Part shown: piece by piece, positions 10,751-23,275 of the stretch
Numbering within the stretch: position 1 is the first letter of the stretch
Layout of the letters: every line of letters starts with the position of its first letter
IMG/VR virus record: IMGVR_UViG_3300023220_000234
Coordinates: 1-23,275 of that record
Length of the DNA stretch: 23,275 nucleotides
Strand: one strand, 5' to 3'
DNA from: a virus
Program-made: the position numbers and the translations under genes
Notes under the pieces: generated by a model
Database searches by the model: none
Seen by the model: only the letters and a program-made list of their open reading frames with translations
What the model was told of the DNA's origin: nothing

Positions 10751-12487
10751 GTGGCTGACACAGACAAAAAAAAGGAACGCTCAACCCCAGAGGCCATGAT
10801 TGATATGGTTATGGAGGAGTGGCGTCAGGGCAGCGCGGAGATTGAGACATGGAAGTCTCAGCCGTGGCAGGAGATTGCTGACTATGTCATGCCTCGCAAG
10901 AGCGAGATCAATACCAAAAAGACAGCCGGTGTAGATGGTTTCACAGATCAGATTTACGATACCACGGCTATTCATGCCAATACTACCCTGGCAGCCGGGC
11001 AAATGGACTTTCTCGTAGCTGGTAAGTGGTTCACCAATAGAGCGCCATTCGAGGACGCCAGCGACGCAGCTAAAGACTGGTATCGAAAGACCGGAGAGAA
11101 GATGATGGATGTGATCAACGGCTCAAACTTTGAAATGGAGATACATTCTTTCTTCAATATGCGAGGAGCATTCGGTACCTCACACTTTCACGTAGAAGAA
11201 GACGACGAAGAGGTCATATACTGCAAGAGCGAGGACATTGGCACCTATGTAATATTCGAGAATGCCCGTGGTATAGTCAATAAAGTGCTAGTGCTCAAGG
11301 AGTACACAGGCTCCCAGCTCTTGGAGGAGTACGGCGAAGTAGGCAAAAAGGGCAATAAAGGCGTATCGCTCAAACTTCGAGAGCGTGCCACCAAGAAAGG
11401 CAAGGATCAGAAAGAGGACAAAATCCAAGTAATCATTTGGGTGGGACCGCGACCAGGCAAGGATATCGATGTAAATAAGATCGACGCACTCAATATGCCA
11501 ATCCGGACACTACATGTTGCCATCGAAGGACGTAAAGGTGGCAGCAAAGGCGAGCTCCTCAGAGAGTCAGGCTATCCTGAAACAGCAACTATGGTAAGTC
11601 GCTGGGCTGAGTGGGGCGACAATGTATACGGGTATTGCCCATCGATCGAGGTGCTCTCCACTATACGACAAGCCAATTTCATAGAGGAGAATCTGGATAC
11701 TTTAGGCGAGGTCATGGTAAACCCGCGCATATTAGTTCCGTCCAATTTAGAGGGAGATGTCAGCTTGAGAGCAGGCGGCGTTACCATATACGACGAGGGC
11801 AACCAAGCCGCCAAGCCCGAGGAGTGGGCAACTAAGGGGCGTATTGACGTAGGTCAGGCCAGAATCGACTTTAAACGCAGCCAGATAAACCAAGCATTTT
11901 TCCAGGATCTATTCCAATTGCTAACTGGCCTCAGTGAGAGAGCACGCGAAAAGACGGCTTTCGAAGTAGCTAACATGCTGGCCGAAAAAGTAGGACGCTT
12001 CCACCCAACATTTACGCGACTCAATACAGAGTTCTCAAAGCCATTTCTTAATCGGGTATTTGGCATATGTTTCAGAGCGGGGATATTCCCGGATCCACCC
12101 GCAGACGTCCTGCGCCAGAACAAGCTTGGCGAAACTATCATTGAGACACCAAAAGTGGTATTCACTAGTAAAATGGCGATGTTACTTGCGGCGCGTAAAA
12201 ACAATGACTTTGTAGCCTTCCAGGCAATGGCTCAAGCACTAGCCCAAGGTGATCCGGGTGCTTTTGTTCGAGTGGTTAATATTGACAGGGCGATAGAATC
12301 AATGGCAGAAAATCAAGGAGTGGATAGTGAATTTTTAAATACCAAAGAGGAGAAAGAGGCGGTAGCAGCACAGCAACAGGCAGCAGCGCAGCAGCGACTA
12401 GCATTAGAGACAACCGAGGTGGCAGCGAAGGCAGCCGCTAATCTGGGCAGAGCTCCTGAGAAAATGCAGGATGCTATTAATATTTAA
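10751..12487 (+). CDS. Portal / head-to-tail connector protein (Head-tail_con-like)
   Basis: This 578-residue product has the length and layout of T7 gp8-type portals. An N-terminal helical region with W..IADYVMPRKSE is followed by the IYDTTAIHANTTLAAGQMDF signature (about residues 68-87). Then come KDWYRKTGEKMMDVINGSNF and the MRGAFGTSHFHVEED segment, central beta-rich wing regions, and the helical QINQAFFQDLFQLLTGLSER region (about 378-397). A Gln/Ala-rich tail ends the protein. Twelve copies form the ring through which DNA is packaged and ejected, docking TerL during assembly and the tail tubular A-like adaptor afterwards. The start is GTG 10751, directly after the preceding stop. The call is secure at family level. 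Confidence 0.92.
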   Translation: MADTDKKKERSTPEAMIDMVMEEWRQGSAEIETWKSQPWQEIADYVMPRKSEINTKKTAGVDGFTDQIYDTTAIHANTTLAAGQMDFLVAGKWFTNRAPFEDASDAAKDWYRKTGEKMMDVINGSNFEMEIHSFFNMRGAFGTSHFHVEEDDEEVIYCKSEDIGTYVIFENARGIVNKVLVLKEYTGSQLLEEYGEVGKKGNKGVSLKLRERATKKGKDQKEDKIQVIIWVGPRPGKDIDVNKIDALNMPIRTLHVAIEGRKGGSKGELLRESGYPETATMVSRWAEWGDNVYGYCPSIEVLSTIRQANFIEENLDTLGEVMVNPRILVPSNLEGDVSLRAGGVTIYDEGNQAAKPEEWATKGRIDVGQARIDFKRSQINQAFFQDLFQLLTGLSERAREKTAFEVANMLAEKVGRFHPTFTRLNTEFSKPFLNRVFGICFRAGIFPDPPADVLRQNKLGETIIETPKVVFTSKMAMLLAARKNNDFVAFQAMAQALAQGDPGAFVRVVNIDRAIESMAENQGVDSEFLNTKEEKEAVAAQQQAAAQQRLALETTEVAAKAAANLGRAPEKMQDAINI

Positions 12488-12823: not shown

Positions 12824-13786
12824 ATGAGCGAAGACGACGGATCAATAATACCAGAAGCTGTAGCAGCGGCAGCTACACCACCAGAAGGCGACGGCACCGC
12901 GGCAGCAGCAGACGCCTCAGCATCTACAACCGCGGCAGCAGCGACAGTGCCAGCACAAGACTTCAGCATGTATGGCGAGAAAGGACTCAATGCTGGTATG
13001 GTCAAACTGCTAGGCGAGGGCGACGAACTGAAAGGGGCGAGATTCTTTTTAAAGAAATACGAGGGCGCAGACGACCCAAATGCCGAAGTATTGAAAGGTC
13101 TCAATAATCTGCAATACATAGCCAGCCAGAAAGCGTATATCAGGCCTCCGGACGATGCTCCGGATAATGTCAAAGAAGAGTTCGGCAAGCAGATGAAACT
13201 GCTAAACCAGACTCCAGAGAGCGCAGAAGGGTACAAATATAATGTCCGGCCGGAGGGCTTGGCAGAAGAGGTGCCGTGGAATCAGGAAGAAGCAAACCAG
13301 TACTCTGAGGTTTTGCACAAACATAATGCGTCTCCAGCATTAGCAGCAGAATTGATGGAGCTGTATAAGGGTGGCCTAGAGGGCATTCCGGCAGTCGTAG
13401 CTCAGGAAGAAGCGACACACAGAGAAGCGCAGATCGATATTCTCAGGAACGAGCACGGTGTAAACGCTGAAAAAGTCATTCAGGAAGCTACCAACGCAGC
13501 AAGCCTACTCGGAGTAAGCCCAGAAGAAACCAGCCGCATTGCCATGACAGCAGCGGGCGTCAACTTCCTTGCCAATCTTAAGACCATGATATCCAGCGAT
13601 ATCCTTAGTACGGCGAAAGCAGCAGGCTCTGTTAATGCGGGCGACGGCCAGAGTTGGTCAGAGAAGGCGATGGAATCATCCAAGCTGGCGACCGAGGCAA
13701 TGAAAGCCAATGATACCCAGGCCTATAACGCGCATTATGCCGATCAGGTGAAATACAATAAAATGGCAGCAGCCGCAAAAAGGTAA
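12824..13786 (+). CDS. Scaffolding protein
   Basis: The 320-residue product is acidic, with an Ala/Thr/Pro-rich disordered N-terminus (residues about 10-45) and a long helical body (KNARF-like ARFFLKKYEGADDP, EEFGKQMKLLNQTPESAEGY, ALAAELMELYKGGLEG). The end is Lys/Ala-rich (YADQVKYNKMAAAAKR), where scaffolds usually bind the coat protein. Such composition and the position between portal and major capsid gene are typical of T7 gp9-like podoviral scaffolds, which guide prohead assembly and then leave the shell. AAAGG at about 12812-12816, eight bases before the ATG, is the ribosome binding site. The assignment rests on composition and synteny. Confidence 0.82.
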   Translation: MSEDDGSIIPEAVAAAATPPEGDGTAAAADASASTTAAAATVPAQDFSMYGEKGLNAGMVKLLGEGDELKGARFFLKKYEGADDPNAEVLKGLNNLQYIASQKAYIRPPDDAPDNVKEEFGKQMKLLNQTPESAEGYKYNVRPEGLAEEVPWNQEEANQYSEVLHKHNASPALAAELMELYKGGLEGIPAVVAQEEATHREAQIDILRNEHGVNAEKVIQEATNAASLLGVSPEETSRIAMTAAGVNFLANLKTMISSDILSTAKAAGSVNAGDGQSWSEKAMESSKLATEAMKANDTQAYNAHYADQVKYNKMAAAAKR

Positions 13787-14105: not shown

Positions 14106-14501
14106 ATGAAAGCGCAATACATGGATAGGCATGGGCTAGAGATTGGCGATTATGTTGCACGCATGGCAGTAGGAGCGCATGGCGATAACTTCAAATGCCA
14201 TGAGTTTTCATTTGGCAGGATTCGTGCCTTTCAAATGGAGAATGCCGAATCAAGGCCTGATGCTGCTCCGAAATTCGGCCTCGATGAATGGGTTGAGGTA
14301 TTGGTTATGCCGTACGATGACGAGATGGCCCCTGCGTGTGAGCGACCGTGGATCCAATGGGGGCCAGAAGAAATCATCAAGCTTTCTGGGTTTGAATACT
14401 TTTTAAGGGCGGTTATGTGGCCTTTCGTTAAGTTTATTTACAATAAGCCTTTAGATGGACGAAACACAGATCGAGTAAAGCAACAAGCAATCAAGACTTG
14501 A
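14106..14501 (+). CDS. Hypothetical protein (131 aa)
   Basis: The first half (MDRHGLEIGDYVARMAVGAH then CHEFSFGRIRAFQME) reads like a small beta-barrel with a GDYVA entry strand, followed by DEWVEVLVMPYDDE and IQWGPEEIIKLSGFEYFLRA. An amphipathic, aromatic segment near the end (FLRAVMWPFVKFIYNK) might touch a membrane or form a core helix. No family is recognised. It is separated from the capsid gene by the 187-base structured leader. The interruption of the usual scaffold-capsid order by two such genes may be a local insertion. Confidence 0.58.
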   Translation: MKAQYMDRHGLEIGDYVARMAVGAHGDNFKCHEFSFGRIRAFQMENAESRPDAAPKFGLDEWVEVLVMPYDDEMAPACERPWIQWGPEEIIKLSGFEYFLRAVMWPFVKFIYNKPLDGRNTDRVKQQAIKT

Positions 14502-14543
14502 CTAACCGGAAAAACTGCATACTGATTTAAAACATAGCTGATA

Positions 14544-14682
14544 CCTTTCCTATATTTGGTGAGCTGGCATAGCCAGAAACCTCCCCTCCTGGAAAGCAGC
14601 CAAAATCGCTAGCAATAGCATCTTGGCCGCACTGCGGACACCCAGGGATCACTACCAAATATAAACTCTTAAAGGAAAGGGG
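14544..14682 (+). promoter_or_regulatory. Structured 5' leader that can sequester the capsid ribosome binding site
   Basis: The gap before the major capsid gene can fold into a multibranched RNA. The outer stem pairs TATATTTGGT (14551-14560) with ACCAAATATA (14654-14663), 10 perfect pairs, and continues with CCTTTCC (14544-14550) pairing GGAAAGG (14674-14680), which is the capsid Shine-Dalgarno. Inside are hairpin CTGGC-ATA-GCCAG (14564-14576) and a stem TCCTGG/CCAGGG (14587-14592 with 14642-14647, one wobble). That stem encloses a GNRA-loop hairpin GCTA-GCAA-TAGC (14608-14619) and CCGC-ACT-GCGG (14627-14637). Such a fold suggests control of capsid translation, or a transcript-processing element. 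The pairing is seen in the sequence; the function and any ligand are inference. Confidence 0.65.
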
Positions 14683-14688
14683 ACAACG

Positions 14689-15618
14689 ATGTCCACAAAT
14701 TCACTCCCAGAGCATTTTACTGAGGATTACAAACAGAACTGGCTGCAACGCATCCAGCAATTCCCGTCATTACTAGCAGGAGCTGTACTTGACGACACGA
14801 TTGACGGTCATATCGCCCGTTACTCGTTTTTGGAAGCACAGGAAATGGACGACATCAACGTCCGTCACGGTGTTACTCAACGTAAAGACCAAGGGACTTT
14901 CATCCGCTGGATGAGATCCGAAAAGAAAACTCTAGCCAATCTACTCGATGAGTGGGATGACAAAGAGCTTGGTCGGCAATTAAGTCCAAAGGGCGGCATT
15001 ATCATGGGGCATGGCTTCGCGTATAACCGCAAAAAGGACTTACAGATCATCAAGGGCATGGAAGACCCTGCGATCACCGGAGAAGACCAAGCAACGCTTG
15101 TGCCTCTTCCTGCTTCGCAGCGTGTAGCCGTTTCCTTCAATCCAGGTGGCGCACCCACTGATTCAGGTCTCACATTCCCTAAGATTGCTGAAGCTCGTTT
15201 CATATTCAAAAACGCACCACTCGAATTGGATCGCACGAACGCATTCGCAGTTATCTCGCCTGCAACCGACAAGGATCTCGTCACTAACATTGAAGAGGCC
15301 CGTAATAAGGACTTTGCTAGTACCAAGATCATTGGTGAAGGCACAGTCGCAGGCGAATACTGGATGGGATTCAATTGGATCGTATCTACGTTGCTCACAG
15401 ATAATCCAGCCGCAGTAGGCGCTGGTGGACCTGTCACCGCTACGAATTGCCTATTCTGGCACAAGGATTACGTTTACTTTGGAGACGGCGAAAAGCGCTC
15501 TAATGTAGATATCCTTCCCGCTGAAAGCCACGCCGTTCAATGTCGCACACGCGCCCGCATGGGTGGAATGCGCCGTGAAGAAAAAGGCGTTGTTCTCGTT
15601 GAAACACTCGTACCTTAA
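14689..15618 (+). CDS. Major capsid protein
   Basis: This 309-residue protein follows portal and scaffold and resembles HK97-fold coat proteins of podoviruses that lack a cleaved N-terminal delta domain. Features include an N-terminal helical arm (EHFTEDYKQNWLQRIQQF), KKTLANLLDEWDDKELGRQL, a central MGHGFAYNRKKDLQIIKGM region, and a C-terminal MGFNWIVSTLL...NCLFWHKDYVYFGDGEK segment. It ends ARMGGMRREEKGVVLVETLV. It builds the icosahedral shell. A strong Shine-Dalgarno (GGAAAGGGG, 14674-14682) lies six bases before the ATG within the structured leader. Ile codons are ATC 12, ATT 5 and ATA 1, unlike neighbouring genes where ATA dominates, which suggests selection for high expression. Confidence 0.88.
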   Translation: MSTNSLPEHFTEDYKQNWLQRIQQFPSLLAGAVLDDTIDGHIARYSFLEAQEMDDINVRHGVTQRKDQGTFIRWMRSEKKTLANLLDEWDDKELGRQLSPKGGIIMGHGFAYNRKKDLQIIKGMEDPAITGEDQATLVPLPASQRVAVSFNPGGAPTDSGLTFPKIAEARFIFKNAPLELDRTNAFAVISPATDKDLVTNIEEARNKDFASTKIIGEGTVAGEYWMGFNWIVSTLLTDNPAAVGAGGPVTATNCLFWHKDYVYFGDGEKRSNVDILPAESHAVQCRTRARMGGMRREEKGVVLVETLVP

Positions 15619-15642: not shown

Positions 15643-16098
15643 ATGGCAGATTTCAACTCAGACGTAGCAGTTAATCAAGTCGACCCGTCGGCCAAGAAAC
15701 TGAATAACACGCCTCAAACTGGTGGTAACGGCATCATGCTTGAATGCATATACACGATCCTCGCTACAGAAGTACTCGTAGTGAACGACCGTGTCCGCTT
15801 GTTCGAGCTCCCAGTCGGTTATCGTCCTAACTCGCCAGATTGTTCCATTGTGAACGACGGCGTAAACGGAACATCCGCAATCGTTCAAATTGGAACGGAT
15901 TCAAATCCTGACAGTATTGCCGACGCAATCGACATTACTGCCGCTGGAATTGATCGAGCTGATGTATCAGGCGACGAGGCAGAAGCACCAGCAACTTCAG
16001 CAGTGACAGAGTTCCTGTTTATGAAGTTCACGACTCTTACCGCCACTATGGTGACCGGCAAGAAGATCATCGTGCGTCTACCTTGTTCAAAGACTTAG
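15643..16098 (+). CDS. Possible minor capsid or decoration protein (151 aa)
   Basis: The gene lies directly after the major capsid gene with a good Shine-Dalgarno (AAAGGA, about 15627-15632) and shares its optimised codons: of 12 Ile codons, ATC 6, ATT 5 and ATA 1. The product has a polar N-terminal arm (residues 1-30), beta-rich segments (YTILATEVLVVNDRVRLFEL, SAIVQIGTD) and an acidic Ala/Glu loop before the final FLFMKFTTLTATMVTGKKII. Size, position and codon use suggest an abundant virion protein such as a capsid decoration or stabilising protein. Sequence alone does not identify the family. A strong terminator follows 17 bases after its stop. Confidence 0.62.
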   Translation: MADFNSDVAVNQVDPSAKKLNNTPQTGGNGIMLECIYTILATEVLVVNDRVRLFELPVGYRPNSPDCSIVNDGVNGTSAIVQIGTDSNPDSIADAIDITAAGIDRADVSGDEAEAPATSAVTEFLFMKFTTLTATMVTGKKIIVRLPCSKT

Positions 16099-16115
16099 TC
16101 CCACGCTCATAAACG

Positions 16116-16157
16116 TCCCGGTGGCAGGCAACCCTCGTCTGCTGCCGGGATACTTTT
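16116..16157 (+). terminator. Rho-independent terminator after the capsid genes
   Basis: A 12-bp stem, 16116-16127 (TCCCGGTGGCAG) with 16139-16150 (CTGCTGCCGGGA), contains two G-T/U wobble pairs and an 11-base loop, and is followed by TACTTTT. It lies between the capsid genes and the tail tubular genes. This matches the place of Tphi between T7 genes 10 and 11, where partial termination keeps tail proteins below capsid levels. No other terminator of comparable quality was found in the window. Confidence 0.85.
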
Positions 16158-22036: not shown

Positions 22037-23275
22037 ATGGCTGAACTAGCATTACTAACCGATCAGGACGCCAAGAGTCTCTGGAACAATCTATCTGTTC
22101 TCGAAACTCCAGAGGAGAAGACCAAAGCGAAAGGGCTTTTAAACTCGTATATCGATAACAAGGAAAAGCTCAAGGAACCTCTGTTCATGGATTCAAAACC
22201 AGAGCTTTTCAATAAAGTGAACCAGGCAGAGTCTATGTTCTCTGATATCAATGACATAGGCGTAAAGCTCAATGATGAGGACAAGCGTAATCTTAACAAA
22301 TCAATCAGGATGGTGCCAGATAAAGGCGCTGCCGCTGCCCGCATAGCCAACACCCATTGGTTGGCAAATGAATACCGCATAACCCCCGCAGAAGCAAATG
22401 AGCAATATGAGACGCTTAGGCGCTCGTACGCGCAAAGACAATTTGGCGACGACCAGGTAGAAATAACCGACACAGATTTCTATGGCCGGGTAGGTGGAGT
22501 TATCAAAGACCGCAAGAAGCAACGCGGGTTCATTGATATAGCCACTCAGTCAGCTTATAAATCTGCCGCGTTGGGCATCCCCCAAAGTCAGGCGTTTTCA
22601 GATACGATTAGCAGGTTATTGGACGAAGATGGGTTCAATGGAAAAACAGGTGACGTGCATCACCAGGCATTTAATCAGGCATACGGTAACGCCACAGAGC
22701 AACTCGGAAAACATCGTGAGGCCTCAGAGAAACTATTTAACTTCATGGGTGCAAGTTTGGGGGCAGAAGGATTCGAGTCAGATTTATCACAGGAAGATGT
22801 CTTAAAGATTTTTGATAAAACGCCAATAGAAGATGTAGAAAGTATATTTTATATTATACAGGCAATGGCAGATGCCCGAGAGCAAGGTGACGAGAAGGAC
22901 GGGTTTTTCGGAGGATTGCAGAAGTCAGGAGAATCTTTATTCAGAGGCACAAAAGCAGTTGCGAACAATCTGATGGGATTCATCAGCGAGCAGAAGCTAT
23001 CCGCAGCATTAGATGGCAGCATAGTAAGGGTGCATAAGTCGGTAGATAGAGAATTTGACAGCAAAGAAGAAAGGCTCGACGCTCTCGTAAATGCCGCGAG
23101 GCCAGCCCGCCCGAAATCGACGGGGGCGATAGCAGAAGAGGACAGGGCTTTTCCGGATACAAGAGTTTTAACGAAAAAAGAAATATCAGAGATACAAGGC
23201 CATGCTAAAAAGCTGATACATCGCAAAGATATGGGGATAAAGCTAAACGCTCTGGCAGAAAACAAAATAGATCCG
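22037..23275 (+). CDS. Internal virion protein, gp16-like by position, 3'-truncated
   Basis: From ATG 22037 the frame stays open to the last base (413 codons), so the gene continues beyond the window. The visible part is helical and charged: LTDQDAKSLWNNLSVLETPE at the start, ANTHWLANEYRITPAEANEQ around residues 107-126, RVGGVIKDRKKQRGFIDIAT around 155-174, and a Gly/Phe-rich DGFFGGLQKSGESLFRG around 290. The size and position fit the large ejection protein of podoviruses (T7 gp16-like). No lysozyme or transglycosylase motif is recognisable in this part; it could be further downstream. The gene begins two bases after the preceding stop. Confidence 0.68.
   Translation, partial: MAELALLTDQDAKSLWNNLSVLETPEEKTKAKGLLNSYIDNKEKLKEPLFMDSKPELFNKVNQAESMFSDINDIGVKLNDEDKRNLNKSIRMVPDKGAAAARIANTHWLANEYRITPAEANEQYETLRRSYAQRQFGDDQVEITDTDFYGRVGGVIKDRKKQRGFIDIATQSAYKSAALGIPQSQAFSDTISRLLDEDGFNGKTGDVHHQAFNQAYGNATEQLGKHREASEKLFNFMGASLGAEGFESDLSQEDVLKIFDKTPIEDVESIFYIIQAMADAREQGDEKDGFFGGLQKSGESLFRGTKAVANNLMGFISEQKLSAALDGSIVRVHKSVDREFDSKEERLDALVNAARPARPKSTGAIAEEDRAFPDTRVLTKKEISEIQGHAKKLIHRKDMGIKLNALAENKIDP

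Follow-up and report, generated by a model that had tools for sequence, protein, structure and literature searches.

Why should the ribosome binding site of a phage major capsid gene be buried in RNA structure, and does this burial control translation? The question is raised by IMG/VR record IMGVR_UViG_3300023220_000234, a virus contig analyzed on one strand, 5′ to 3′, from position 1 to position 23,275 (this whole stretch of 23,275 nucleotides is referred to as the window). It carries a podophage head-and-tail block with the portal at 10751 and a capsid assembly (scaffold) gene at 12824..13786 (+). The latter was assigned by position and by synteny with locus L009 and annotated phages, while searches of PHROG and Pfam with it gave no matches. 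Two small genes lie between this presumed scaffold gene and the major capsid protein gene (14689..15618, +; PHROG phrog_3437 major head protein, E 3.3e-34), and a possible decoration protein and tail tubes A and B are encoded on its 3′ side. Between tail tube A and the gene that ends at 16098, a 15-pair hairpin followed by UACUUUU (16115-16151) probably acts as a terminator behind the capsid block. The small gene ending at 14501 is separated from the capsid start by 187 non-coding bases, and it is in this leader, directly upstream of the phrog_3437 gene, that the structure resides.

The original prediction placed here a multibranched RNA leader (14544-14682) able to mask the capsid Shine-Dalgarno (SD) sequence. 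Its outer stem of 7 + 10 pairs, its inner hairpins and its GCAA loop were all recovered, from sequence and by folding, where they had been proposed. In the modeled structure (all features on the + strand), the anti-SD CCUUUCC (14544..14550) pairs with the SD region GGAAAGG (14674..14680), which forms the 3′ strand of the outer stem, and a second outer helix joins UAUAUUUGGU (14551..14560) to ACCAAAUAUA (14654..14663). Enclosed are a triloop hairpin, CUGGC-AUA-GCCAG (14564..14576), seen in sequence and fold, and an inner hairpin, GC-A-GCCAA ... UUGGC-C-GC (14596..14630), with the GNRA tip GCUA-GCAA-UAGC at 14608-14619; the inner hairpins are one among several near-equal folds. A start-codon hairpin, GGACA-ACGA-UGUCC (14681..14694), is predicted to contribute to occlusion of the SD and start, and akin GAC/GUC hairpins occur at the capsid starts of L022, L053, L075, and L091. 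The minimum free energy of 14544-14682 was -45.6 kcal/mol (z -3.37), reached by 0 of 200 shuffles, and 14502-14700 folded with z -3.02, one of 200 shuffled controls being as good. Of 19 gene starts compared within the window, none had a lower z than the capsid start (-4.39) or a less accessible SD region (mean unpaired probability of 0.03), and in the free ensemble the unpaired probability of GGAAAGG was about 0. The long-range anti-SD:SD outer stem, a criterion that applies to the CCUUUCC and CUCCUU subgroups of leaders, is present in the window with p of 0.03 for the window alone. A hidden SD and an AU-rich outer helix would also suit an RNA thermometer, or a chance structure without function. 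The outer stem had a modeled probability of 0.998 at 37°C and still of 0.986 at 60°C; unmelted up to that temperature, the leader was not assigned to the thermometers and this reading was rejected. Chance is excluded for the family by covariation, synteny, and conserved promoter position, and we regard both readings as very improbable.

The closest relatives of the capsid protein came from three IMG/VR contigs (44% identity), whose leaders also end in an SD-hiding stem (CCCUUUUG/CAAAAGG and CCUUCGGUUCAA/UUGAACCGAAAGG). Searches with tail protein B and a capsid profile yielded up to 160 further loci, some of them being the same contigs. After named phages were added and near-copies removed, 100 capsid leaders of related podophages (about 100 non-redundant) were retained, with start codons assigned by script and with the loci related by descent. 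In a large part of these the pairing partner of the SD is a segment some 110-145 nt upstream, changes in the one being matched in the other, and wherever an anti-SD arm exists the SD-hiding stem is kept in different sequences (CCUUUCC/GGAAAGG, CUCCUU/AAGGAG, CGGUUCAA/UUGAACCG). SD masking, as originally claimed, is thus supported both by folding energy and by these relatives. The capsid starts of L025, L027, and L031 have no purine-rich SD; there CCUACUACAAUG pairs with an upstream GAGUAGG, so that the start region is masked even without an SD. Leaders L044-L065 and L115-L131 contain an extra stable hairpin between core and SD (GACCGACACCGCC..GGGGUUAGUC; AUCAGUUUCGACUGAU), whose sequence hardly varies within a subgroup. 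In part of the group the start codon pairs with the 5′ element (AGCAGACA/UGUCUGCU), which may be a by-product of conserved codons. Phage Piluca, an Acinetobacter contig, and Escherichia coli phage APEC encode a capsid of the same family, with only a short gap upstream of its gene; in these three neither such a leader nor the scaffold motif presented below was found. Leaderless phages (L016, L017, L187) have a scaffold of about 207-217 aa, as compared with 270-300 aa in leader-bearing phages, and the extra scaffold region possibly accompanies the RNA control.

The capsid search of bacterial genomes gave no confirmed relatives, the portal as query gave no matches, and an exact DNA pattern of the L001 core matched the same three contigs only. 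The original view that no named RNA family fits this leader holds against Rfam 15, in which the window had no match at the gathering threshold and nothing meaningful at a relaxed E-value; 11 relative loci returned only tRNA. L001 seemed to resemble cobalamin riboswitch elements, but this lead was abandoned for want of an Rfam match. The leader was unreported in the open-access literature that we searched.

As to its extent, the fold of 14544-14682 was confirmed but the 5′ limit was not, since the leader also includes TTGACT (14498-14503) and an element at 14537-14540. TTGACT (14498..14503, +), a -35-like element of a presumed capsid promoter, overlaps the stop codon of the ORF that precedes it. 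In 29 of 31 leaders TTGAC lies 37-52 nt (mostly 38-43) upstream of the 5′ element, with 0.027 occurrences expected per interval of this kind; in the analyzed sequence the distance is 39 nt, in agreement with the position of about 40 nt that marks the group. A -10 element may lie near 14519-14527, with a poor match to consensus. Because the position of TTGAC is conserved, the capsid leader is probably the 5′ end of a separate capsid transcript.

The original prediction had overlooked this promoter element, the recurring motif described below, and also a local hairpin that competes with the outer stem for the anti-SD. The 5′ element GCUG plus AUAC (14537..14544, +), of a pattern, GCNG-A[CU]A[AC], that is kept in relatives, provides the outer 5′ strand and the bulge of this hairpin. 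The competitor GGAAAG-CAGC (14591..14600, +) captures the last six bases of the anti-SD with GGAAAG (14591-14596) and the 5′ element with CAGC. The ten pairs formed between GCUG-AUAC-CUUUCC (14537-14550) and GGAAAG-CAGC (14591-14600) were equaled in 6 of 2000 shuffles. In growing-RNA calculations the local hairpin had a probability of 0.88-0.996 with the 3′ end at 14600-14630, then 0.60 at 14660 and 0.03 at 14665; the drop coincides with emergence of the second outer strand (14654..14663), to which the local hairpin yields. For the full-length leader the SD-hidden (OFF) fold was better by about 11 kcal/mol in the model, and forced folds that included the second motif copy gave -48.4 (OFF) and -40.7 (ON) kcal/mol. 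The start-codon hairpin is still closed in the ON fold. Five relatives modeled in the same way showed the same order, with an early hairpin (0.90-0.99) and a later SD stem (0.76-0.99). Elsewhere in the window, interleaved inverted repeats at 372-483 lie directly 5′ of the start (487) of a DUF1376/primosomal-like gene, in a region with a folding z of -3.6. The repeats 372-385/438-451 and 386-412/457-483 are mutually exclusive as a nested fold and might represent a pseudoknot or another bistable leader.

At their 5′ end, leaders of the CUCCUU group have the sequence GGCAG-ACAA-CUCC(loop)GGAG-C-CUGCC. It forms a local hairpin with the anti-SD inside, and pairing of the anti-SD with the SD is the alternative to this hairpin. 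The 3′ strands of this hairpin (CUGCC, CUGUC, CUGCUCCC, CUUCC) have a second, downstream partner (GGGCAG, GGACA, GGGAGCAG, GGAG) that closes the core domain. MAFFT alignments were out of register across subgroups; the short hairpin and permutation of partners were therefore used to assess covariation, in place of a covariance model of the whole leader. With 15 representatives and 5000 permutations of own versus foreign partners, foreign partners did as well as the own ones in 0 cases for the local hairpin, 16 for the core helix, and 100 for anti-SD:SD. In an 18-sequence alignment of the local hairpin 95.8% of cells were paired and five of eight pairs had changes on both sides; the alignment outscored all of 500 shuffles (0/500 as good) and all slid registers. 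Covariation in homologous leaders, the absence of which would have spoken against the original prediction, was thus found by both approaches. As the anti-SD also fits a local hairpin that covaries in relatives, we consider the leader bistable. The "switch" proposed earlier gains support from this competitor, which covaries and wins early in simulated transcription, and it stands as a predicted switch.

The covariation of the SD pairing, which points to control of initiation, also bears on the idea that the leader is an mRNA processing or stability element in the manner of the T7 gene 10 leader, for example an RNase III site. The stem would then be cut or protective, and cleavage would relieve the SD masking. 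Its long helices and its site before a highly expressed capsid gene with its own promoter agree with this idea, as does an RNase III site annotated elsewhere in phage epsilon15, yet RNase III does not need the specific bulge that recurs in these leaders. We hold a processing role to be improbable.

This bulge belongs to a motif present in one to three copies in many leaders: two helices of free sequence are interrupted by A[CU]A[AC] in one strand and by a lone C in the other. Its density was 4.4 per kb in the 100 leaders versus 0.10 in antisense and 0.125 in the rest of the loci, as measured on the same, phylogenetically related sequences to which the definition had been fitted. The motif class was present in 54 of 100 leaders, and the runner-up among 256 loop/opposite-base classes in 6. 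Across 60 representatives the base opposite the loop changes in concert with the first base of the loop: A/C was observed 35 times versus 1.6 expected and G/U 9 times versus 1.6. The remaining 14 base combinations had no comparable enrichment, the largest excess being that of U/C (5 versus 1.3). The two wobbles, A-C and G-U, are alike in shape, and our preferred reading of the motif is therefore a wobble pair (A-C or G-U) together with a 3-nt bulge, flanked by helices that vary in sequence. By hand inspection, G-U versions were found in VP5 and ZP6, and both versions in ct3Et533. The cultured Vibrio phage CKB-S2 has two copies, CGCAACGG-AUAA-UCA(UUUU)UGA-C-CCGUUGCG and GUCG-C-CC(GCAA)GG-AUAA-CGAC, and no anti-SD; Vibrio phage 1.182.O, likewise cultured, also has two. 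In Yersinia phage YeP5 both copies lie within the OFF (SD-hidden) domain, and in the CUCCUU group one copy lies within the ON hairpin. In L023 and L024 an extra copy, GUAGAAAG-C-CCCC(GAAA)GGGG-AUAC-CUUUCUGU, has the anti-SD as its 3′ helix strand. In Pelagibacter-type phages (L010-L015, L156-L180) the coding end of the small gene that precedes the capsid gene (peptide KTIRKNLT) contains a motif hairpin, AGUAAG-ACAA-UUC(..)GAA-C-CUUACU, some 140-160 nt upstream of the capsid start.

In the window the two motif copies have AUAC and ACAC bulges with no opposite base and so depart from the wobble-bulge definition. The second, CUUGG - CCGC(ACU)GCGG - ACAC - CCAGG (14622..14646, +), competes with the 14596..14630 hairpin and is compatible with both the ON and OFF states; 0 of 2000 shuffles had a copy as good, and none had both copies together. 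GCGG-ACACCC is kept in L001-L003, and the near relatives L003 and L042 have ACAC opposite C, plus a C.C mismatch. A pair of exclusive states, short stretches of conserved unpaired sequence, and tandem copies are also what would be expected of a small-molecule riboswitch, the motif serving as its tandem binding pocket. However, very little of the conserved sequence is unpaired, Rfam gave no riboswitch match, and the motif is confined to capsid and scaffold starts and is not found at metabolic genes; such a riboswitch seems to us quite improbable, even more so than a processing role.

The scaffold location emerged from the motif matches that lie outside the leaders. In 20 loci these fall into a single 100-nt bin that covers 1100-1200 nt upstream of the capsid start, nearly all other bins having 0 or 1 match; this bin is the start of the capsid-assembly (scaffold) gene. 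In HTVC010P the sequence ACAG-AUAA-CACAG(GAAA)CUGUG-C-CUGU is found at +11 of the capsid-assembly ORF. Relatives have CGCAG/CUGCG and CGGAG/CUCCG at the same site, indicative of compensatory changes; the CGCAG/CUGCG changes turn a valine codon into an alanine codon and keep the base pair. A scan of the scaffold start in the window (12824) was negative. In view of this and of motif copies without opposite base, the window is a divergent, not typical, member of the podophage capsid-leader RNA group, with which it has in common the site next to a phrog_3437 gene, the long-range stem, the competing local hairpin formed by 5′ element and anti-SD, and the TTGAC position. Indirect support for the "assembly feedback" of the original prediction comes from the recurrence of one RNA motif in capsid leaders and, in many relatives, at the scaffold start; the earlier interpretation as a whole is partly supported.

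The presence of one motif on two mRNAs suggests a trans-acting reader, and because the hosts range from SAR11 to Vibrio, a phage head protein would be more likely in this role than a host protein. The small gene between scaffold and capsid was not favored as regulator, as it occurs in Pelagibacter-type phages and not in all motif-bearing groups. A reader could be dispensed with if the leader were a passive kinetic timer that gives each new transcript a short ON period and then turns OFF, the motif being only architectural: in the models the ON-to-OFF order needs no ligand, and the OFF state is strongly favored. A timer leaves unexplained the specific loop with its A-C/G-U swap, the same motif at the scaffold start, and leaders such as that of CKB-S2, with two motif copies and no anti-SD. 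We therefore see it as unlikely, if less so than the other alternatives.

Our preferred explanation, in which we have moderate confidence, is a translational operator of capsid and scaffold genes, bistable in the capsid leader, that is read by a trans-acting factor, probably a phage protein. Computation provides its framework: predicted structures that covary and compete, a promoter element at a conserved place, and a motif that recurs and occupies two locations; binding by a protein, the identity of this protein and the choice between repression and activation are our inference. Transcription would start just upstream of 14537, and the first 65 nt would form the local hairpin holding the anti-SD, with the SD free (ON). 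As the rest of the leader emerges, the anti-SD would move into the long-range stem with the SD and translation would be shut (OFF). The factor, probably a head-assembly protein of the phage (scaffold or capsid), would bind the wobble-bulge motif and so coordinate translation of scaffold and capsid. In the CUCCUU group, binding to the copy in the ON hairpin would favor translation, while in YeP5 binding to copies in the SD-hidden domain would favor repression, so the factor may be a repressor or an activator. For the copy at the scaffold start, a block of initiation would be the simplest effect of binding. As OFF is favored by about 11 kcal/mol in the window, a ligand would need to act during transcription or be strong. 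More specifically, one head-assembly protein may read the motif on both scaffold and capsid mRNAs and so tie their translation together; we put this forward tentatively, as somewhat short of an even chance.

To our knowledge, there is as yet little explanation of how the amounts of scaffold and capsid, and the timing of their synthesis, are adjusted to each other in tailed phages. The leader design and the shared motif suggest an undescribed RNA control system for building phage heads, and an RNA element common to both genes would be a direct handle on the scaffold:capsid ratio and its timing. If true, RNA-based control of capsid stoichiometry would be widespread in dsDNA podophages, including phages of SAR11, Vibrio, and others. 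The RNA family, which Rfam lacks, would be one of abundant marine and freshwater phages; it would offer a naturally tunable SD switch for expression tools and provide a mechanism that can be tested in cultured phages, e.g., HTVC010P and Vibrio phages.

Several known systems resemble parts of this arrangement. In Salmonella phage P22 the scaffolding protein is reportedly under autogenous translational control, and there too a head-assembly gene of a dsDNA phage is controlled after transcription; P22 is not known to use an RNA motif, whereas here a defined motif lies at the scaffold start and in the capsid leader of relatives. The coat-protein operator hairpins of the ssRNA phages MS2 and PP7 are likewise small, lie at a translation start, and expose an unpaired element for recognition, in their case by the capsid protein. 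The present motif differs in its loop, in the unrelated capsid fold, in belonging to dsDNA phages, and in its tandem copies and long-range SD lock, its binding by a protein being presumed. With SD-sequestering riboswitches and ribosomal-protein leaders it shares an anti-SD common to two exclusive helices, but here phage capsid and scaffold genes are concerned, with no known ligand and no Rfam match. Finally, the T7 gene 10 leader also places a promoter and a structured leader directly before a podophage capsid gene; in the leaders described here, in contrast, the structure is predicted to hide the SD and covaries to do so.
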